From Bacteroidia bacterium (GTDB lineage: Bacteria; Bacteroidota; Bacteroidia; Chitinophagales; Chitinophagaceae), in NCBI GenBank assembly GCA_030427635.1, contig JAUIBA010000004.1, forward strand, positions 186,001-250,000: a DNA stretch of 64,000 bases. Direction: 5' to 3'. Shown here piece by piece: positions 24,945 to 54,708 of the stretch (the stretch's first letter is position 1; each line of letters opens with the position of its first letter). The notes under the pieces were generated by a model. The model was not told where the DNA came from. It did not search any database and saw nothing but the letters and a program-made list of their open reading frames with translations. The position numbers and the translations under genes are program-made.

Positions 24945-25012
24945 ACAGAGCTGGGATAAAGAAAAAACTGAAACTATACGGCTTCGTACAGGAAAAGCCA
25001 TAATTCTGCCGC

Positions 25013-25651
25013 TTATTCAAGAAAGGCAAAATGCGCATTACGGTATTCCGGCTTCTTTACCATCTCCTTCAGATTACTGAATGTGGACAGCGGTCCGGTA
25101 GTTACAAATATGTTGGTAAGCCATGGTGGCACTTCGCCCCCGGGGTCAAAACGGAGCACATAAGTGATTTCTACCTCATCATCTGATATATCCCGTATCT
25201 CCCAATGTGCGTGCGACTTTTCCACTCTTATTACACCCGGCACATGTGGCAGTGTTTCCGGCACCACATGTGAGTCCAGAATAGTTATATCATTCTTCCT
25301 TGTGATGGTAAAATGGCTTACATAGTCACGGCTGGCCACTGGCCAGGGAAGGGAAACCAGCGAATAAAATATTATTTCGTTCGCTGCTATCTGCTCTACT
25401 ATACGGGCCTGTTTTGTATTATATATCCAGTCTGGCTGCCGTGGTATATCCAGCAGCAGAGCCACTATCTGGTGCCGGTTACAATGCACCCTTGCCACTG
25501 CTTTTACTGATCTTACCGCTGAGCTGTCCTGAAGTGCAGTATAAACCCTGATGCCATTTTTCTCTTTCCTGAATTTCCACTGCTGTGCAGTCCCATACTG
25601 AAAAGAGAGTACGATTAAGACAAATAGTATTTTATATAGTTTTCCGGGCAC
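25013..25651 (-). CDS. Exported START-domain (StAR-related lipid transfer) protein
   Basis: A 212-residue protein with signal peptide (PGKLYKILFVLIVLSFQYGTAQ) and one START-like domain: WKFRKEKNGIRVYTAL at the start, then VALLLDIPRQPDWIYNTKQ, SLPWPVASRDYVSHF and ITYVLRFDPGGEVPPWLTN. START domains bind lipids or sterols in a deep pocket; the ligand here is unknown. The start is GTG at 25651, as a TAA precedes it directly. The gene reads in the same direction as rpoC but begins about 160 bases after the rpoC stop, on the far side of the rpoBC terminator, so it is a separate unit. Confidence 0.82.
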   Translation of the reverse strand: MPGKLYKILFVLIVLSFQYGTAQQWKFRKEKNGIRVYTALQDSSAVRSVKAVARVHCNRHQIVALLLDIPRQPDWIYNTKQARIVEQIAANEIIFYSLVSLPWPVASRDYVSHFTITRKNDITILDSHVVPETLPHVPGVIRVEKSHAHWEIRDISDDEVEITYVLRFDPGGEVPPWLTNIFVTTGPLSTFSNLKEMVKKPEYRNAHFAFLE

Positions 25652-25727
25652 TTACCTGAAATGTATCACAAAATAAACAGGTTCAGCGAATTATCAATAT
25701 GACAGCAGTCATAATTACTACTGATAT

Positions 25728-25756
25728 AAAAAAGAGGCGGTCATAAAGACCGCCTC
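25728..25756 (-). terminator. Terminator of rpoB-S23-rpoC
   Basis: A 9-bp GC-rich stem (25734-25742 with 25748-25756, loop ATAAA) is followed on the minus strand by six T (25733-25728), 35 bases past the rpoC stop. Confidence 0.88.
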
Positions 25757-25790
25757 CTGACAAAACTGATTTGCTTTGCAGCAAAATATA

Positions 25791-28700
25791 TTATTCGTCT
25801 TCGTCGAACTGAAGCACATCACGGTTGGCAAGCAACAGCTCAAACTCTTCTTTCGACCCTACAACCAGATCATCAAATTCACGCATACCAGTACCTGCAG
25901 GGATGAGGTTACCTGTAATAACGTTCTCTTTCAGACCTGCAAGACCATCCTGCTTACCATTGATAGCTGCCTGAGACAGAACCTTGGTAGTTTCCTGGAA
26001 CGATGCAGCTGATATCCAGCTCTGTGTACCCAGTGATGCTTTGGTGATACCAAGCAGCATAGGCGATGATGTAGCCGGATTTGCTTCGCGGTATTCCACA
26101 AGCTTCTTGTCGGCACGACGCAGAGCGCTGTTCTCTTCACGCAGCTCACGGATAGTTACTATCTGACCAGGATGCAGCAGTTCTGAATCGCCGGCATCGA
26201 TAACAACTTTCTTATCAAATATCCAGTCATTCTCATCCATGAAGTCAAACTTATCTACAGTATCTTCTTCAAGGAACTTGGTATCTCCCGGATCAACAAT
26301 GTTTACTTTACGCATCATCTGACGTACGATCACCTCTATGTGCTTATCATTAATCTTCACACCCTGGAGACGATATACTTCCTGAATTTCATTTACCAGA
26401 TACTCCTGTACAGCAAACGGTCCTTTGATAGACAGGATATCACTTGGAGTAATAGCACCATCAGAAAGTGCAGTTCCTGCTTTCACAAAGTCACCATCCT
26501 GAACCATGATATGACGTGTAAGAGGTACCAGATATTTTTTAACGAGACCTTCGCGGCTTTCCACGATTATCTCCCTGTTACCACGTTTCACATTACCAAA
26601 GGCTACCACACCATCTATCTCAGCTACTACAGCCGGATTGCTTGGGTTACGTGCTTCAAACAGCTCCGTTACACGTGGCAGACCACCGGTGATGTCCCGG
26701 CTACGACCCATCACACGTGGTATCTTCACCAGTACCTGACCATTATGTACTTCCTGGCCCGGCTCTACGATGATATGAGAACCTACCGGCAGGTTATAAG
26801 ACTTCTGCTCCTTACCTTCCACCACTATCGCTGGTATCTTGGTTTTATCCTTGGTCTCAATTACCACACGCTCGCGGTGACCTGTCTGCTCATCAGCTTC
26901 TTCGCGGTAAGTAACGCCTTCTATGATGTTGTCAAATGATATCTTACCGTGTATTTCAGAAATGATAACGGCGTTAAACGGATCCCATGTGCATATCACA
27001 TCGCCCTTAGCCACCTTTTTACCATTGGAAACTTTAAGTATAGAACCATAAGGTATATTGTTGGTAATCATCAGGCGGTCGTTTGCTACGTCCACTATAC
27101 GCACCTCACCGGTACGGCCTATTACCACAACCTGCTCTTCACCTTCAACATCTTTATACTTGGTAGTACGCAGACCGTCAAACTGTATAGTTCCGTCAAA
27201 GCGTGCAGCCAGCTGAGATTCAATAGCAGAAGAACCAGCCACACCACCCACGTGGAAGGTACGCAGTGTAAGCTGTGTACCAGGCTCACCTATCGACTGG
27301 GCAGCGATGATACCTACTGCATCACCTTTCTGCGTCATGTAACCGGTAGCAAGGTTCTTACCATAACATTTTGCACATACACCTTTGCGGCTTTCGCAGG
27401 TAAGTACAGAACGTATTTCTACAGCATCTATCGGACTTTCGTCTATTGCCTTCGCAATATCTTCTGTGATTTCCTCACCTGCCGATACGAGTTGCTTGTC
27501 AGTAAGCGGGTCATATACATCATGAAGTGATGTACGGCCCAGTATACGATCATACAGTGGCTCTACGATTTCCTCATTATCTTTCAATGCAGATGTTGCA
27601 ATACCACGCAGGGTACCACAGTCTTCATTGGTAATAACCACATCCTGTGCTACGTCCACCAGACGACGGGTCAGATAACCCGCATCCGCTGTTTTAAGGG
27701 CGGTATCCGCCAGACCCTTACGGGCACCGTGCGTAGAGATGAAGTACTCAAGTACGTTCAGACCCACCTTGAAGTTTGAAAGGATTGGATTCTCAATGAT
27801 TTCTGAACCAGTAGAACCACTACGACGAGGTTTCGCCATCAGTCCCCTCAAACCAGCCAGCTGTTTAACCTGCTGTTTAGAACCACGCGCACCGGAATCA
27901 AGCATCATGTACACAGAGTTGAAGCCCTGCTTATCAGCTGCCATCTCGCGGATAAGTGTTTCTGTTACACGGGTATCCACACGCGACCAGATATCGATAA
28001 TCTGGTTATAACGTTCGTTATTGGTGATAAGCCCCATGTTATAGTTGTCCCATACTTCATCTACCTCACCCTGCGCTGCAGATATCAGCTGCTCTTTCAC
28101 ATCAGGAACAGTAAGGTCCTTAATGTTGAACGACAGACCACCACGGAAGGCCGTACGGAAACCGAGTGTTTTGATATCATCAAGGAACTGTACCGTCTTA
28201 GGTATGTTAGTATTTTTCAGTATCTGCCCAATGATTTCACGCAGCGACTTTTTAGTAAGTAGTGCGTTTACGAAACCATTTTCTTTTGGTACAAACTGGT
28301 TGAATATTACACGGCCTACAGTAGTTTCTATAAGCTTAGTTGTAGTTACGCCTTCCGACTCACGTACACTGGCACGTACTTTTATGTGAGCGTGCAGGTC
28401 GGCACGGCCTTCATTATAAGCTATCAGCACTTCTTCAGTACTGTAGAATGCCATGTTTTCACCTTTTACTTTTTCAGTATCAGTTGATTTCTTACCCTTG
28501 GATATATAATACAGACCCAATACCATGTCCTGAGAAGGCAGGGTGATAGGAGTACCATTCTGCGGGTTAAGAATGTTATGTGATGCCAGCATCAGCAGCT
28601 GTGCTTCCAGTATGGCAGCATTGCTTAGTGGTACGTGTACCGCCATCTGGTCACCATCAAAGTCGGCGTTGAACGCCGAACACACCAGCGGGTGCAGCTG

Positions 28701-30113
28701 TATGGCCTTACCTTCTATGAGGCGTGGCTGGAATGCCTGAATAGACAAACGGTGCAGCGTTGGAGCTCGGTTTAGCAGTATCGGGTGACCCTTCAGTACA
28801 TTTTCCAGGATATCCCATACTACTGCTTCTTTGCGTTCTACCAGCTTTTTAGCGCTCTTTACTGTTTTTACAATACCCCTCTCTATCAGCTTACGGATAA
28901 TGAACGGTTTGAACAGCTCCGCAGCCATGTCCTTTGGAAGACCGCACTCATGCAGTTTCATTTCAGGACCTACCACGATTACCGAACGACCAGAGTAGTC
29001 AACACGTTTACCGAGGAGGTTCTGACGGAAACGGCCCTGCTTACCTTTCAGTACATCAGAGAGCGATTTCAGTGCGCGGCCACCTTCAGCTTTCACAGCA
29101 TTCGATTTACGGCTGTTATCAAACAGTGAATCGACAGCTTCCTGAAGCATACGTTTTTCATTACGCAGGATCACTTCAGGTGCCTTGATTTCTATAAGGC
29201 GTTTCAGACGATTGTTACGGATAATTACACGACGGTAAAGGTCGTTAAGGTCTGACGACGCAAAACGGCCACCATCCAGTGGTACAAGAGGACGCAGTTC
29301 CGGTGGAATAACCGGAATATACTGCATTACCATCCACTCCAGACGGTTTTCCACACGTGTATTGGCATCACGGAAAGCCTCTACTACGCTCAGGCGCTTA
29401 AGGGCTTCCTGCTTACGCTGCTGAGAAGTTTCATTAGCGGCAGCATTACGCAGGTCGTATGATAGCCTGTCAAGATCTATACGCCCCAGCAGCATATGTA
29501 CTGCTTCAGCACCCATTTTAGCTATAAACTTGTTAGGATCTTCATCTGGCAGATACTGATTTTCCTTCGGCAATGCATCCAGCAACTCCAGATACTCGTC
29601 TTCTGTCAGCAACTGCTGGTCAGTCTTTTCTGAGTCTTTCAGGTTCAGCTTCTGGCGAATCATTTCTTCCGCTTCACCTGCCTGTACCACTACATAACGC
29701 TCATAGTACACGATGCTCTCCATCTTCTTGGAGCTTACACCCAGCAGATAACCAATCTTATTAGGCAGACTCTTAAAGTACCAGATGTGTACTATAGGTA
29801 CTACCAGTTTTATGTGACCAAGGCGCTCACGACGAACCTTCTTTTCTGTAACTTCCACACCGCAGCGGTCACACACAATACCCTTATAACGGATACGCTT
29901 GTACTTACCACAGTAGCATTCATAGTCTTTTACAGGGCCGAAGATCTTTTCGCAAAACAGGCCGTCGCGCTCAGGCTTGTAGGTACGATAGTTGATAGTT
30001 TCCGGCTTCAGCACCTCACCATACGAGCGGTCAAGGATAGCATCTGGTGATGCAAGGCTGATTGTGATTCTTCCAAATCCTGCCTTTGGGCGGTTATCTT
30101 TCTTTATAGCCAT
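25791..30113 (-). CDS. rpoC: RNA polymerase beta' subunit
   Basis: The 1440-residue clamp and catalytic subunit. Visible are the N-terminal zinc ribbon ([20 protein letters not shown]), the lid and rudder region, and the catalytic Mg-binding motif [12 protein letters not shown]. The trigger loop region ([14 protein letters not shown]) and the second zinc site ([15 protein letters not shown]) follow, and the protein ends in an acidic LQFDEDE. The length fits Bacteroidota RpoC. It is preceded 47 bases upstream by a gene for a 23S-IVS-type four-helix protein instead of directly by rpoB, and followed by a clear terminator. Confidence 0.98.
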
Positions 30114-30120
30114 TTCTTTC

Positions 30121-30150
30121 AGTAATTAGTAGTTAGTCATTGGTAGATAG
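30121..30150. repeat. Degenerate heptamer array between S23 gene and rpoC
   Basis: Plus-strand heptads GTAGTTA, GTCATTG and GTAGATA are in phase at 30129-30149. They are decayed copies of the GTAGATA heptamer seen at 53794. Relative to the array on the other side of the S23 gene they are inverted. Confidence 0.55.
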
Positions 30151-30160
30151 TTGCAGAATA

Positions 30161-30508
30161 TTATATGGAGTTGTGCAATGCGTACAACATTTTCTGAATG
30201 CTATTCAATTCCAGTATTATATCTCTGCTCGTATCTTCATTTATGTAACCTAATTGTTTACTAATAATAATTTGTGTTTCAAGTTCGTGTGCCGATCCGA
30301 TGGATATCGTCAGAAACTGTTTGAATGAATTGTTTGAATTTCTACCTGCACCTTCTGCAATATTGCTGGGAATTGATGTCGCAGCTCTTTGCATCTGGCT
30401 AACTAAGTTGAATCTTTCATCTTCCGGGAATTTTCTGGTCACTTCATATACCCTGACAACAAGATTTATTGCTTTTTGCCAAACTTTTAATTCCCTGAAG
30501 TTGTTCAT
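30161..30508 (-). CDS. Four-helix-bundle protein, 23S rRNA intervening-sequence (S23/IVP) family
   Basis: A 115-residue all-helical protein. The family pattern is plain: FRELKVWQKAINLVVRVYEV, then FPEDERFNLVSQMQRAATSI, SNIAEGAGRNSNNSFKQFL and IGSAHELETQI. Members are known from ORFs inside 23S rRNA intervening sequences of spirochaetes and other bacteria, and as scattered chromosomal genes in Bacteroidota; they form pentamers and their job is unknown. Here it sits between rpoB and rpoC with exactly 47 bases on each side, in the same direction, so it must be transcribed with RNA polymerase genes. Both gaps contain heptamer arrays in inverted orientation, which suggests insertion as a cassette. 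Confidence 0.9.
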   Translation of the reverse strand: MNNFRELKVWQKAINLVVRVYEVTRKFPEDERFNLVSQMQRAATSIPSNIAEGAGRNSNNSFKQFLTISIGSAHELETQIIISKQLGYINEDTSRDIILELNSIQKMLYALHNSI

Positions 30509-30522
30509 ACAACCTGACTATT

Positions 30523-30550
30523 TACCATCTACTACCTACCATCTACTGTT
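30523..30550. repeat. Heptamer array between rpoB and S23 gene
   Basis: Four plus-strand heptads: TACCATC TACTACC TACCATC, then TACTGTT. The first 25 bases are the same as those at 37223 except for one base. The array sits directly behind the rpoB stop. Confidence 0.8.
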
Positions 30551-30555
30551 GCACT

Positions 30556-33500
30556 CTACTCAAATTTCAGTTCCAGACCCAGACCACGCAGTTCGTTCAC
30601 AAGTACATTGAACGATTCCGGTATGCCCGCGCGTGGAATGTTGTCACCTTTCACGATAGCTTCATACGTCTTCGCACGACCCATGATATCATCCGACTTC
30701 AGCGTAAGCAGCTCCTGAAGGATATTGGCAGCACCATATGCTTCCAGTGCCCACACCTCCATTTCACCAAAACGCTGACCACCGAACTGTGCTTTACCAC
30801 CCAGCGGCTGCTGTGTAATAAGACTGTATGGACCTATAGAACGGGCGTGCATCTTATCGTCAACCATGTGATGCAGTTTGATCATATAGATGATACCCAC
30901 TGTTGCTTTCTGGTGGAAACGCTCTCCTGTTTCACCATCATACAGATATGTATGGCCAAACTCCGGCAGGCCAGCCTTGTCTATAAGACCACCAATTTCA
31001 TCTACAGTAGCACCGTCAAAGATTGGTGTGGCAAACTTAACGCCCAGCTTCTCACCAGCCCATCCCAGTACAGTTTCATATATCTGCCCCAGGTTCATAC
31101 GGGAAGGTACACCCAGCGGGTTCAGTACCACATCCACCGGAGTTCCATCCTCAAGGAATGGCATATCCTCCTGACGTACTATCCTGGCTACGATACCCTT
31201 GTTACCGTGACGGCCCGCCATCTTATCACCAACTTTCAGCTTACGCTTGCTTGCCAGATATACTTTTGCTAGTTTCAGAACACCGGCAGGCAGCTCATCA
31301 CCTATGCTCAGGTTAAACTTCTCACGCTTGTAACGACCCAGCTCTTCATTGAACCTGATGTTGTAGTTATGCAGGAGCTGGTTTATCAGCTCATCTGTTT
31401 CTTCTTCACCAGTCCAGCCCAGTGGGTTTACATTCTGGTAATCTATAGAACCCAGAGTCTTGGAGTTGAACTTACCACCCTTGCTCAGTACAGTCTCACC
31501 ATAAGTGTTGGTAACACCTGCAGAGTTCTTGTCTTTCAGGAGTATCTGCAGTTTATCAAACAGCAGCGACCTCAGATCTTCCAGATTCTGCTCATGTACT
31601 TTTTCTATCTTTTCCAGCTGCGCTTTTTCACGCACCTTAGAGTTCTTGTCCTTTTTAGCACGCTGGAACAGCTGCTTGGATACTACGATACCTTCAGTAC
31701 CGCTCGGCGCCTTCAGGGAAGCATCTTTTGCATCACCAGCCTTGTCACCAAAGATGGCACGCAGCAGCTTTTCTTCCGGTGTCGGGTCAGTTTCACCCTT
31801 AGGAGTTATCTTACCTATAAGTATGTCGCCCTCACCTACGTGAGCACCTATACGGATGATACCATTTTCGTCAAGATCTTTGGTAGCCTCTTCCGATACG
31901 TTAGGAATGTCTGGTGTCAGCTCTTCCTCACCCAGCTTGGTGTCACGTACTTCCAGTTCATACTCATCAATGTGTACCGATGTGAACCAGTCTTCACGTA
32001 CCACCTTCTCGTTTATCACGATGGCATCCTCAAAGTTGTACCCTTTCCATGGCATGAACGCCACTTTCAGGTTACGGCCCAGTGCCAGCTCACCATCCTG
32101 AGTAGCATAGCCCTCAGTCAGGAAGTCGCCCGGCTGTACTTTCTGCCCCTTACGCACACATGGGCGCAGTGTCATACTGGTACTCTGGTTGGTCTTCTTA
32201 TACTTAGTCAGTGAATATACTTTCAGATCGTCGTCAAACGATACCAAACGCTCTTTATCACCGCGATCATAACGTACATGGATGTGATTTGCATCTACAT
32301 ATTCTATTATACCATGCCCTTCAGCGTGTATCTGAATACGTGCATCACGGGCTGCACGGGCTTCCAGACCAGTTCCCACTATCGGCACCTGTGGTACGAT
32401 AAGTGGCACCGCCTGGCGCTGCATGTTTGATCCCATCAGTGCACGGTTGGCGTCATCATGCTCCAGGAACGGGATGAGTGATGCACTCAATCCCACAATC
32501 TGGTTAGGCGCCACGTCCATGTACTCCACTTCTACAGGGTCCAGAATCGGGAAGTCACCCGTCTGACGCGATTTAATCTTGTCTTCAAGGAAGTTTCCGC
32601 TATCGTCCATTGGCACGTTTGCCTGGGCAATCTTAGCCAGATCTTCCTCTTCTGCACTCAGGAATCTGAAGTTGTTCAGGTCCACCTTACCCTCTTTTAC
32701 CTTGCGGTATGGAGTTTCGATGAAGCCCATATCATTAATCTGAGCATGTACACACAGTGTAGATATCAGACCAATGTTTGGTCCTTCCGGTGTTTCAATA
32801 GTACAAAGACGGCCATAGTGGCTATAGTGTACGTCACGTACCTCAAAGCCTGCACGCTCACGGCTCAGACCACCAGGGCCGAGGGCCGAGATACGACGCT
32901 TGTGCGTAATCTCAGACAGCGGGTTGGTCTGATCCAGGAACTGAGACAGCTGCGATGTACCAAAGAATGAGTTAATTACTGAAGACAGTGTACGTGCATT
33001 GATAAGGTCTATCGGAGTAAACACCTCATTGTCACGTACGTTCATACGCTCACGTATAGTACGGGCCATACGGGCCAGACCTACACCAAACTGGGCAAAC
33101 AGCTGCTCACCTACAGTACGTACACGACGATTGCTCAGGTGGTCAATGTCATCTATCTCAGCCTTACCATTGGTGAGGCGTACCAGATACTTAATGATGG
33201 ATATGATATCTTCCTTGCTCAGTACCTTGGTATTGAGGTTGATATCCAGACCCAGTTTACGGTTTATCTTATAACGGCCTACTTCACCCAGGTCATAACG
33301 CTTATCACTGAAGAACAGTTTCTCAATGATGCCACGTGCGGTTTCATCATCGGGAGCGTCTGAACCACGGAGCTGACGGTAGATATGCTGTACCGCTTCC
33401 AGCTCTGAGTTTGAAGTATCCTTATTAAGTGTATTATATATTATAGAGAAGTCGCCGCTTACCTCTTCACGCTGCAGGAATACGGTAGCTATACCCATGT

Positions 33501-34386
33501 CCTGAATCAGCTCTGCATTCGACTCGTCAAGAACGCTGTCGCGGTCAAGTACCACTTCATTACGCTCAATGGTTACCACCTCGCCGGTGTCCTCATCTAC
33601 GAAGTCTTCTGTCCAGCTACGCAGTACACGTGCAGCCAGTCTGCGACCTATGTGACCTTCCAGAGATTTTCTGTCTACGGTCACTTCCTCAGCCATGCCA
33701 AACAAATCAAGGATATCCTTATCTGTTTCATAACCTATGGCACGCAGCAGCGTAGTCACCGGGAATTTCTTCTTACGGTCTATATACGCATACATTACGT
33801 TATTGATGTCCGTAGCAAACTCCATCCAGGCTCCTTTGAACGGAATCACACGGGCACTGTATATCTTGGTACCGTTCGGGTGAACGCTCTGACCAAAGAA
33901 TACACCTGGTGAACGATGCAGCTGTGATACCACCACACGCTCAGCACCATTGATAACGAATGTACCACGAGGCGTCATGTACGGGATATTGCCCAGAAAC
34001 ACATCCTGAACAATAGTCTCGAAATCTACGTGCTCTTCGTCATTACAGCTCAGCTTCAGCTTTGCCTTCAGAGGAACAGAATACGTAAGACCACGCTCCA
34101 TACACTCGTCTATAGTGTAGCGGGGCGGGTCAATGAAGTAGTCGAGGAACTCAAGTACAAAGATGTTACGCGTGTCGGTGATCGGAAAATTCTCCTTGAA
34201 CACCCGGAACAGACCTTCATTGTTGCGCTTGTCAGGTGTAGTCTCCAGCTGAAAAAAGTCCTGGAACGACTGCAACTGAATGGCAAGCAGGTCTGGCGTC
34301 GCCGCCGAGTCATGTAATTTACCGAAGTTTATCCTACCGGATGCGGTCTTTTTTTGAGGTATAGCCATAGTAATCTGTTGCTCCAT
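30556..34386 (-). CDS. rpoB: RNA polymerase beta subunit
   Basis: The 1276-residue beta subunit. The rifampicin pocket is readable: [20 protein letters not shown] followed by [20 protein letters not shown]. The residues matching E. coli D516, H526 and S531 are Asp, His and Ser, so the enzyme looks drug-sensitive. [12 protein letters not shown] and the C-terminal AHFGGQ-like [19 protein letters not shown] are also present. Start 34386 (MEQQIT) or 34368 ([15 protein letters not shown]) are both possible. An exact Bacteroides-type promoter lies at 34506-34536. The usual rplKAJL cluster is not upstream; anmK is. Confidence 0.98.
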
Positions 34387-34505
34387 TTTTACAAATAAAA
34401 ATTTCCCGCAGGACAGGCATACCCCACCCTACAGGCTATCTGCATTAACAAAAAAGAATAATAAAAGTTGTTTCGCGCACGTACTGGTTCCTTACGAAAG
34501 GGATG

Positions 34506-34536
34506 CAAAGATAGGAAAGGCTATTAATAAAGCAAA
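34506..34536 (-). promoter_or_regulatory. Promoter of rpoB
   Basis: Minus strand: TTTG (34536-34533), 19 bases, TATCTTTG (34513-34506). It is an exact fit to TTTG-N19-TAnnTTTG with the same boxes as the sdh promoter. The leader to ATG 34386 is about 115 bases, long for this window, and contains a TTTCG...CGAAA inverted repeat (about 34474-34498). Confidence 0.78.
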
Positions 34537-34675
34537 AAATATTCCAAAATAGTACTCAACCGCAAAAAAGTGACTGAAAACGCAGTAAAATCAGCAAAAA
34601 TTAATTTTACAATAATGCGTTTTTAGAAAATTTAACATTTCATTCACGTAAAACACATAGGAAATATACAAATTC

Positions 34676-35755
34676 TTATGGTAGCCAGATCGCCCCTCCG
34701 CTGCTGTCTCTTTCAGCCCCGGTTACACCACTTAGCACGTTTACCTCTTCCCGCCACCTCAGGGCGCCTATAAGCGCCATTACAAGCGCTTCTTTATACA
34801 TAACTACCTCATCGTCAGGCACTATTACACTCACCGCACCCGAAAGTTGCTTTTTTATTTCTTCAGTCAGGAAGGTATTGAATGCTCCCCCACCCGTTAT
34901 CAGCATTTGCGGTGCAGGATTAGTTACAGGAGTCTGATGTATTGCTGCGGCTATCCGTCCGGCTATATGCACCGTCATTGTATGTAGCAGGTCCTTCACA
35001 TCGTGCTGCTGGTCTTCTATGGCACGTATAGCTATTGCCACAGCCTCCTGGTTACTAAGCGACTTGGGTGGCGTACGCTGATAATACTCTGCGCCTCTCA
35101 GTGCAGCGTCCACATCGGGCAGGTAATTCCCTGCAGCCGCCATTTCACCACCTTCATCCATCGTTTTGCCCAGGCGGTGCGCCAGTGCATTCAATGCCTG
35201 GTTGGCAGGACAAATATCGTAAGCATAGGAGCCATTCGGTCCTTGCACCGTTACATTAGCAATACCCCCTATATTTAATAAATAATCATATCCACTAAAC
35301 AGCATTCTGTCACCAATAGGCACAATAGGTGCCCCCTGCCCTCCCAGGGCCACATCCATAGCTCTCAGGTCGCAAATCACCGGCAGCCCGGTCACAGATG
35401 CTATAGTAGCACCGTCGCCAAGCTGAAAGGTAGTACGGCTACCCGGCTCATGAAACACCGTATGCCCGTGCGATGCTATAAAATGTACCTTATGCTCCAG
35501 GTCATGGTCATCCATGAAGGTTTTTACAGTCTCCCCGGTATAACGGCCATATGCCGTGTGCAGTTTCAGAAAGTCCCCCACCGGCAACCGTGCCGCCTGG
35601 CGCAGATGCGTTACCCACTCCGTCGGATATGGCACGCACCGCGTCTGCTCTATTGCATACTCCCATTTTCCCCGCACCTCTTCCAGCCGCACATAAGCTA
35701 TATCCAGCCCGTCCAGCGAACTGCCGGACATAAGACCTATCACATTATATATCAT
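34676..35755 (-). CDS. anmK: Anhydro-N-acetylmuramic acid kinase
   Basis: AnmK phosphorylates and opens 1,6-anhydro-MurNAc, a step in cell-wall recycling. The 359-residue protein has the hallmark start VIGLMSGSSLDGLDIAYV (ATP-binding, acetate and sugar kinase superfamily). It also shows ASHGHTVFHEP, LNIGGIANVTV, DICPANQALNALA (catalytic Asp region) and LITGGGAFNTFL. Length is normal. It is upstream of rpoB on the same strand with a 289-base gap containing the rpoB promoter, so it is probably a separate unit. Confidence 0.95.
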   Translation of the reverse strand: MIYNVIGLMSGSSLDGLDIAYVRLEEVRGKWEYAIEQTRCVPYPTEWVTHLRQAARLPVGDFLKLHTAYGRYTGETVKTFMDDHDLEHKVHFIASHGHTVFHEPGSRTTFQLGDGATIASVTGLPVICDLRAMDVALGGQGAPIVPIGDRMLFSGYDYLLNIGGIANVTVQGPNGSYAYDICPANQALNALAHRLGKTMDEGGEMAAAGNYLPDVDAALRGAEYYQRTPPKSLSNQEAVAIAIRAIEDQQHDVKDLLHTMTVHIAGRIAAAIHQTPVTNPAPQMLITGGGAFNTFLTEEIKKQLSGAVSVIVPDDEVVMYKEALVMALIGALRWREEVNVLSGVTGAERDSSGGAIWLP

Positions 35756-35891
35756 CCTACCTTATTACATCCATAGTCACCCTGTGCAGCACTACGGTTA
35801 CAATTAAAAATTATATTAAATGTTTCACCTAAGAAACCAAGCCAGTGTCATTCACACTCCAACACATGCCACACATACCACATAAAATACA

Positions 35892-35927
35892 TCATAAAAG
35901 AGCCGGTTACAACCGGCTCTTTTATGA
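35892..35927. terminator. Terminator hairpin behind pgk
   Basis: A 17-base perfect inverted repeat (35892-35908 with 35911-35927) has AAAAG on one side and CTTTT on the other, so it works on either strand. It lies between pgk (stop 35970) and the anmK start. Confidence 0.8.
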
Positions 35928-35929
35928 GA

Positions 35930-35969
35930 CCCCGGCCCTCTCTCCCAGGGAGAGGAGGTATGAGGCTCC
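35930..35969. repeat. REP-like palindromic intergenic element
   Basis: A GC-rich block with the palindrome CTCTCCC-A-GGGAGAG (35940-35954), bordered by CCCCGGCC and GAGGTATGAGGCTCC. It has the look of the dispersed CCTCTCCC/GGGAGAGG palindromes often seen between Bacteroidota genes. It directly follows the pgk stop and precedes the terminator. Confidence 0.5.
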
Positions 35970-37175
35970 TTATTTCTTTATTGCAGCTATACCCGGCAGT
36001 TCTTTTCCTTCAAAGAACTCCAGCATAGCGCCACCACCGGTAGATACATAACTTACCTTATCAGCAAGTTTAAACTTATTCACCGCAGCTACACTATCGC
36101 CGCCACCTACCAGTGTGAAAGCACCATTGGCAGTAGCAGCAGCCACAGCCTCAGCTACCGCCTTTGTACCGTGCTGAAACTTATCCATTTCAAACACCCC
36201 CATAGGTCCGTTCCATAGTATAGTACGCGACTGAGATAATACATTGGCAAACTGATCTATGGCCATGCTGCCTATATCCAGTCCCATCCAGCCGTCTGGT
36301 ATTTCCATACTTACTGCCGATGAAGTAGCCGCATCTGCAGCAAATTTATCGGCCAGTATGCTGTCAGATGGCAGATGTATGCATACGCCTTTCTCCTTAG
36401 CCTTAGCCAGGAGGTCCAGCGCCATATCCAGACGGTCCTCCTCACACAGGGAGTTTCCTATCTGGCCACCCTGTGCCTTAAAGAAGGTATAAGCCATACC
36501 GCCACCTATTATTATGTCGGTAGCCTTATCCAGCAGGTTTTCTATTATCAGTATCTTGTCCGACACTTTTGCACCGCCTATAATGGCAGTAAAAGGCTTC
36601 TGACTATTATTCAGCACCTGCTCAGCAGCTTTCACCTCGCCTTCCATCAGCAGACCGAACATTTTTTTACCGGCAGCAAAGTAGTCAGCTATTACAGCGG
36701 TAGATGCATGCGCCCTGTGTGCCGTACCAAATGCGTCATTTACATACACATCACCCAGTTTCGACAGCTTTTCTGCAAACTCTTTATCACCCTTTTCTTC
36801 CTGCTTGTAATAGCGCAGGTTTTCCAGCAGCAACACCTGACCGGGCTGCAGTGCAGCAGCCTTTGCAGCCGCATCCTCACTGATACAGTCGTCAGAGAAC
36901 TGCACTTCTACCCCCAGCAGTGACGACAGATGCGCTACCACAGGACGCAGAGAAAAATCTGCCAGTGTCAGGTGTGGTTTCTTCTCTATATCCTTCAGCG
37001 GACGGCCCCAGTGACTCATCAGCACTACGCTGCCACCATCGGCCAGCACCTTGCGTATAGTGGGTAATGCCGCTCTGATGCGGGTATCGTCTGTAATAGT
37101 GCCATTCTTTACCGGCACATTGAAGTCAACGCGTATCAAAGCCCGCTGACCATTGAAGTTATGGTTACTGAACAT
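35970..37175 (-). CDS. pgk: Phosphoglycerate kinase
   Basis: The glycolytic enzyme that makes ATP from 1,3-bisphosphoglycerate. The 401-residue protein has [19 protein letters not shown] (substrate site), [41 protein letters not shown] and the nucleotide-site ends [11 protein letters not shown] and [12 protein letters not shown]. It is complete and of normal length. It ends in a REP-like palindrome and terminator. No other glycolysis gene is adjacent. Confidence 0.97.
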
Positions 37176-37222
37176 TATTATGAAATAAATAAATACGAAT
37201 AAAATACAACTGAAAACTGTTT

Positions 37223-37261
37223 TACCATCTACTATCTACCATCTACTAAAGACTATCTACC
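37223..37261. repeat. Heptamer array between hmgA and pgk
   Basis: In-phase heptads TACCATC TACTATC, TACCATC TACTAAA, GACTATC and TACC run on the plus strand up to the hmgA stop (37265). This array is nearly identical to the one at 30523, but no S23 gene is present here. Confidence 0.8.
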
Positions 37262-53749: not shown

Positions 53750-53793
53750 TAAAAGTAATGAAAATATTTTTTATGCTTCATACCAGGCTCAAT

Positions 53794-54708
<915 letters not shown>

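Follow-up and report, generated by a model that had tools for sequence, protein, structure and literature searches.

An S23 gene and its flanks between rpoB and rpoC

On the minus strand of the window (the whole 64,000-nt stretch of DNA that was analysed, from a host genus close to Flavipsychrobacter), a gene for a 115-amino-acid protein (30161..30508) lies between rpoB (30556..34386) and rpoC (25791..30113), the two host genes identified by their open reading frames and by protein identity to relatives. The order of transcription would be rpoB, S23, rpoC, with a 47-nt gap on either side of the S23 gene. Matches along the full length of the protein, above the curated cut-offs of PF05635 (23S_rRNA_IVP; 142 bits, cut-off 33.8) and TIGR02436 (131 bits, cut-off 24), place it in the S23 (23S_rRNA_IVP) family of four-helix-bundle proteins, in which 2GSC and 2RLD are sequence relatives with solved structures. 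To our knowledge, no enzymatic activity is known for the S23 protein. A preliminary description of this DNA had reported a 115-residue S23-family gene with 47 nt on each side; the coordinates and the scores of 142 and 131 bits agree with its assignment. An assembly error at the gap is ruled out, as S23 genes of different sequence occupy the same place in 12 other genomes. The equal length of the two gaps had seemed a possible signal, but it was rejected: in relatives the gaps measure 34–91 and 39–60 nt, so the equality is chance.

The cassette between rpoB and rpoC holds this one gene only. No Rfam match was found in window positions 25000–36000, sigma-70-type promoters did not exceed those in shuffled sequences, and no terminator-like site was seen on the minus strand. 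S23 is likely to be co-transcribed with rpoB and rpoC. No transposase, target duplication or excision product was seen for the cassette, and the ends of the insertion are not readable because the flanks of sites with and without it have diverged too far.

Both 47-nt gaps, overlooked in the preliminary description, are inverted heptamer arrays and part of the insertion. In the 5'-to-3' direction of the coding strand, the gap upstream of S23 carries CAGTAGATGGTAGGTAGTAGATGGTAAATAGT and the one downstream CTATCTACCAATGACTAACTACTAATTACT, each with a period of 7 and each complementary to the other. The GT-rich 5' arm (30509..30555, minus strand) begins directly 3' of the rpoB stop codon and forms the first half of the inverted repeat; the AC-rich 3' arm (30114..30160, minus strand) ends just 5' of the rpoC start codon and forms the second half, with the S23 gene in the loop. 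The 5' arm scores 19/28 for tandem 7-base units, as in arrays of the STRR type, the heptanucleotide repeats of cyanobacteria.

The calculated duplex of the two arms in the window has an energy of −31.0 kcal/mol, versus −14.3 ± 3.3 for shuffled arms. Pairing was strong in all 12 rpoB–rpoC cassettes tested, and arms of the same type paired better than arms of different types at this site. Duplex energies computed with 120-nt flanks included coding sequence, which diluted the signal (half of the loci had z < −3), and the exact gaps were used for the arm tests after that result. The fold of the whole cassette as RNA is moderately better than that of shuffles (z −2.4), and its minimum-energy form does not contain a simple arm–arm pairing. 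The arms can pair, so a transcript would hold the S23 gene in the loop of a hairpin.

Heptamer arms at other S23 loci

We compared 80 S23 loci from named genomes, nearly all of them Bacteroidota, which were picked as the nearest kin of the window protein; the names of the genes at these sites were read from the sequences. Both neighbours are co-directional with S23 in 71 of the 80 loci. The gene lies between fadJ and fadA (20 loci), fadA and an acyl-CoA dehydrogenase gene (11) and odhB and lpdA (8), and further sites are rpoB|rpoC, prfA|pyrF, sdhA|sdhB, metH|metF, atpD|atpC, rnfG|rnfE, trpG|trpD and hisH|hisA. Across the 80 loci, the lag-7 match in the two arms is 0.44 and 0.48, versus about 0.28 at lags that are not multiples of 7, and 7 is the sole period that stands out in both arms. 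Inverted complementarity is 17.3 for arms of the same locus and 9.3 for permuted arms, with a maximum of 11.05 in 10000 permutations, although the loci are related to one another and the permutation values overstate their independence. At fadJ|fadA the arms vary between species and still match within the locus (15.4 versus 9.6; 0/20000 permutations). No own-arm signal was detected at odhB|lpdA (p 0.83), where the arms are alike throughout.

Such arms bracket 86% of S23 genes, versus 19% (11/57) of control genes in the same stretches. Nine of these 11 bracketed controls are further S23-like genes, three confirmed with Pfam and the rest read from the sequences, and the other two come from one spot in L091 that has a PD-(D/E)XK_3 gene. 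Genes of the GxxExxY/PD-(D/E)XK_3 kind (PF13366) in relatives of the window genome have inverted-repeat brackets of their own, significant at 16 of 29 loci; PF13366 loci include L217, L218, L225, L228, L232, L233, L234, L237 and L242. Their brackets are of other kinds (AACCACAAAGGACACAAAG...; GTCTGAACCTAGATTTG...GGATT...), and these genes are a parallel family in intergenic hairpins.

Outside Bacteroidota the arm plan occurs as well. In Nostoc, Geminocystis, Calothrix and others, S23 genes on plasmids have arms made of arrays such as GGGAGTA / TACTCCC, which are heptamers of the STRR kind. Significant inverted repeats bracket 6 of 12 cyanobacterial S23 genes, versus none of 77 control genes taken from two of the same plasmids. 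An Azospirillum S23 gene follows the same plan with heptamer arms. In Leptolyngbya and Gemmatirosa the units are 8 bases long, and the inverted repeat of Gemmatirosa is not significant. On two cyanobacterial plasmids, S23 is flanked by cas6 and cas4 within a CRISPR locus (L201, 1501–1860; L206, 1483–1851); the locus in L206 has a type I-D cas1d.

Heptamer arrays also occur without S23, in 28% of nearby co-directional gaps, and the idea that they are strictly specific to S23 was rejected, as many gaps with arrays lack the gene. The window holds two such orphan arrays of the S23-arm type. One (TAGTAGA/GGTAGATAG; 37219..37261, minus strand) lies between a homogentisate-dioxygenase-like gene and pgk, and is possibly a remnant or a non-autonomous copy; the other, (GTAGATA)n, lies at 53782..53833 on the plus strand. 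A second, distant S23 gene of the window genome (L002, 1200–2200) has no clear heptamer arms and has a GGTCAGAGTGAG...CTCACTCTGACC hairpin upstream. At L190 (14017–14613), a gene for a small cysteine-rich protein, YkgJ-like by eye, has an AC-rich array 5' of its start and a GT-rich array 3' of its stop, the reverse of the order in the S23 cassette, as would result if each of two cassettes had left a single arm behind.

Presence, exchange and copying of the cassette

In a protein search, 13 genomes of the genus, the window genome included, had S23 between rpoB and rpoC. A survey of 27 genomes based on RpoC found the same 13 with S23, two in which the arms remain but the gene is decayed or missing (G011, arms with a decayed S23 gene; G022, arms only), two with what appears by eye to be a remnant arm (G016 and G029) and ten with a short rpoB–rpoC gap and no arrays. 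Among the 13, the S23 frame of G018 is broken near its end. These many relatives without the gene uphold one reading in the preliminary description, that of a tolerated insertion in the operon. The 13 proteins form one clade, and the pairwise dN/dS of S23 is 0.04–0.16 among pairs with a computable dS. Such low values, which the preliminary description had taken as the mark of a working member, indicate that S23 is a working protein under purifying selection.

A different hairpin, GTAGAGACGCAATGCATTGCGTCTCTAC or a variant, is frequent in gaps between rpoB and rpoC that lack S23 (L040, L043, L047 and L054). By the coordinates listed, many genomes of the family and order have a broken operon, with rpoB and rpoC apart (for example, G143, G178, G195, G152 and G237); in several, the two genes lie 31 kb to more than 1 Mb apart on one contig.

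The S23 proteins at the rpoB–rpoC site fall into clade A, which has TAGTAGA-type arms and includes the window genome, and clade B, whose arms are of the AGTCTAA/AAGTCGA type. In the tree built from the flanking parts of rpoB and rpoC, G028 (A) groups with G026 and G019 (B), as does G027 (B) with G010 (A), and both groupings are rejected by the S23 data (AU p 0.002 and 4e-5). Of two sister genomes, G024 has a complete type-A cassette and G022 has bare type-B arms. Cassette type is reflected in both arms (p 0.001 and 0.0004), whereas the last 150 bases of rpoB and the first 150 of rpoC have no A/B structure (p 0.34 and 0.44). Because the arms and S23 sort by type and the adjoining rpoB and rpoC sequences do not, the gene and its arms have been exchanged together, as a single unit with narrow limits. 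A tract of homologous recombination in rpoB or rpoC was sought and not found, save for a weak association of the last 60 bases of rpoB with cassette type (p 0.07), and homologous recombination over a very short tract could account for the exchange of A and B.

In the S23 tree, near kin are placed at different sites. S23 proteins that are at least 70% identical and occupy different sites have an arm similarity of 0.41, versus 0.05–0.09 in distant pairs, and the type of arm tracks the S23 protein even across sites (Mantel p 0.0005). Two genomes of the genus of G530, which is Pedobacter judging by its sequences, have two cassettes each (G673 and G633), in the neighbouring gaps fadJ|fadA and fadA|acd. 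Within either genome the two copies share 87.6% identity, versus 79–80% for the same site between the genomes, which suggests that the cassette was copied on separate occasions or that the copies converted one another. The second cassette copy of G746 is decaying. The same unit is thus found at different sites, and at sites that are empty in relatives, as is characteristic of a mobile element.

Interpretation and comparison with known systems

We consider it probable that the insert between rpoB and rpoC is one copy of a widespread, selfish mobile cassette that is built like a 23S rRNA intervening sequence (IVS), resides harmlessly in operon mRNA and does not serve RNA polymerase. Its three parts, a 5' heptamer array, the S23 gene and a 3' heptamer array inverted relative to the first and able to pair with it, travel together, by the comparisons above, and settle between co-directional genes, where they are exchanged, copied, decayed and lost. 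Such a cassette would need no promoter of its own and would be expressed with the host operon. Pairing of the arms in the RNA would give a stem that, by analogy with Coxiella, may be a natural substrate of RNase III. The hairpin may let the host tolerate the cassette, either through cutting by RNase III or by insulating rpoB from rpoC, as with the IVSs of 23S rRNA. A cut in the operon mRNA would part two cistrons whose translation is separate in any case, and this would explain why the cassette is tolerated between genes and not within them. Selection maintains S23 although the host can do without it; most likely the protein works for the cassette, recognising the arms that flank its own gene, and may in this way help the cassette to spread.

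Alternatively, the hairpin and S23 could be an mRNA element useful to the host that tunes the ratio or the stability of the flanking cistrons, with S23 as an autoregulatory RNA-binding protein. The low dN/dS of S23, the compensating arms, the uniform polarity and the position directly after a stop codon and directly before a start codon would all fit such a regulator, as would the frequent placement between genes that share a complex or pathway (rpoB|rpoC, sdhA|sdhB, atpD|atpC, odhB|lpdA and fadJ|fadA). However, conserved operons are where insertions between co-directional genes get noticed anyway, and we regard this role as unlikely given that the cassette is patchy, decays and is lost at a single site within a genus, that its types swap against the host tree and that kin of S23 occupy unrelated operons. 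The cassette could also have no mobility of its own, S23 and its arms having been moved only by homologous recombination or gene conversion between heptamer arrays born by slippage. Arrays without S23 do exist, and the exchange at rpoB–rpoC could be allelic replacement, but second sites within one genome need copying beyond allelic exchange, arm type tracks the S23 protein and no tract was seen in the flanking genes; we therefore find purely passive movement quite improbable.

The preliminary description had also offered that the protein might have acquired a link to polymerase. Its location in the rpoBC operon and the purifying selection on it would be expected of an S23 protein that had gained a function in RNA polymerase, but the gene is confined to part of one genus and absent from many close relatives, and no gap of 350–600 nt was seen among about 85 adjacent rpoB–rpoC pairs listed by coordinates elsewhere in the order. 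Kin of S23 are found in unrelated operons, with similar bracketed genes between those of fatty-acid metabolism, the TCA cycle, ATP synthase, tryptophan and histidine, and the rpoB–rpoC cassette itself is swapped, decays and is lost. We judge a polymerase function to be very improbable, and the suggested link does not survive these observations.

Returning to the selfish cassette, we tentatively raise a broader proposal, to which we give somewhat less than an even chance: that S23 is the active part of unrecognised mobile elements that cross phyla and recognises its cognate heptamer hairpins as RNA or single-stranded DNA, that the STRRs of cyanobacteria and the arrays of Bacteroidetes are largely arms or footprints of these elements, and that 23S IVSs are the special case in rRNA. 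S23 proteins and heptamer repeats have each so far been without an explanation. Should they be parts of a single mobile cassette, the two could be put to the test together, with the arms as the binding substrate of S23; the 23S IVS would be a worked example of the processing, and the operon sites would reveal where such an element can be tolerated. A cassette of this kind would also account for much of the small-scale variation in gaps between essential genes.

Genes for S23 in 23S IVSs and heptamer arrays were both already known; we found no description of a link between them in the open-licence literature, to which the search was confined. The Avd/bAvd proteins of diversity-generating retroelements are a distant sequence match (bAvd, 25.7 bits, cut-off 40; NF033474, 24.9 bits, cut-off 80), but neither a reverse transcriptase nor a variable-repeat structure adjoins the S23 gene. 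REPIN–RAYT systems combine a small protein, the TnpA_REP tyrosine transposase RAYT, with cognate hairpin-forming repeats and with repeat copies that have no gene. The S23 cassette resembles them in these respects and differs in that S23 has no TnpA_REP domain and that orphan arrays are few in the window genome.

Closer to the arms are the STRRs and the TAACTGA heptamer arrays reported from Beggiatoaceae, Cyanobacteria and Bacteroidetes (MacGregor 2015, PMC4679880), in a paper whose main text does not mention S23 or intervening sequences. Like the arms, these are intergenic tandem 7-base units of many sequence types, often just 5' of start codons; unlike them, they have been described as direct repeats of unknown origin, whereas here cyanobacterial S23 genes bear such arrays as arms.

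The closest system is the 23S rRNA IVS with an S23 open reading frame, as in Leptospira and Coxiella (PMC4990558), which shares the protein family, a similar size (about 430–480 nt), terminal inverted repeats that form a stem with the reading frame in the loop, and a patchy distribution with horizontal exchange and decay of the reading frame in some hosts. The Coxiella IVS is 428 nt long and has a 28-bp terminal stem, cut by RNase III in mid-stem, with the S23 reading frame in the loop (PMC4990558); that frame is decaying, whereas the S23 gene of the window is under purifying selection. The cassette differs further in that its arms are arrays of 7-base units and in that it lies in operon mRNA between genes rather than in an rRNA helix. 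Being between rpoB and rpoC and not inside a 16S or 23S rRNA gene, the insert is not an IVS by definition, but its reading frame is enclosed by a stem of terminal inverted repeats, as seen in the arm duplex and the family-wide permutations, and it has the anatomy and the evolutionary behaviour of an IVS.
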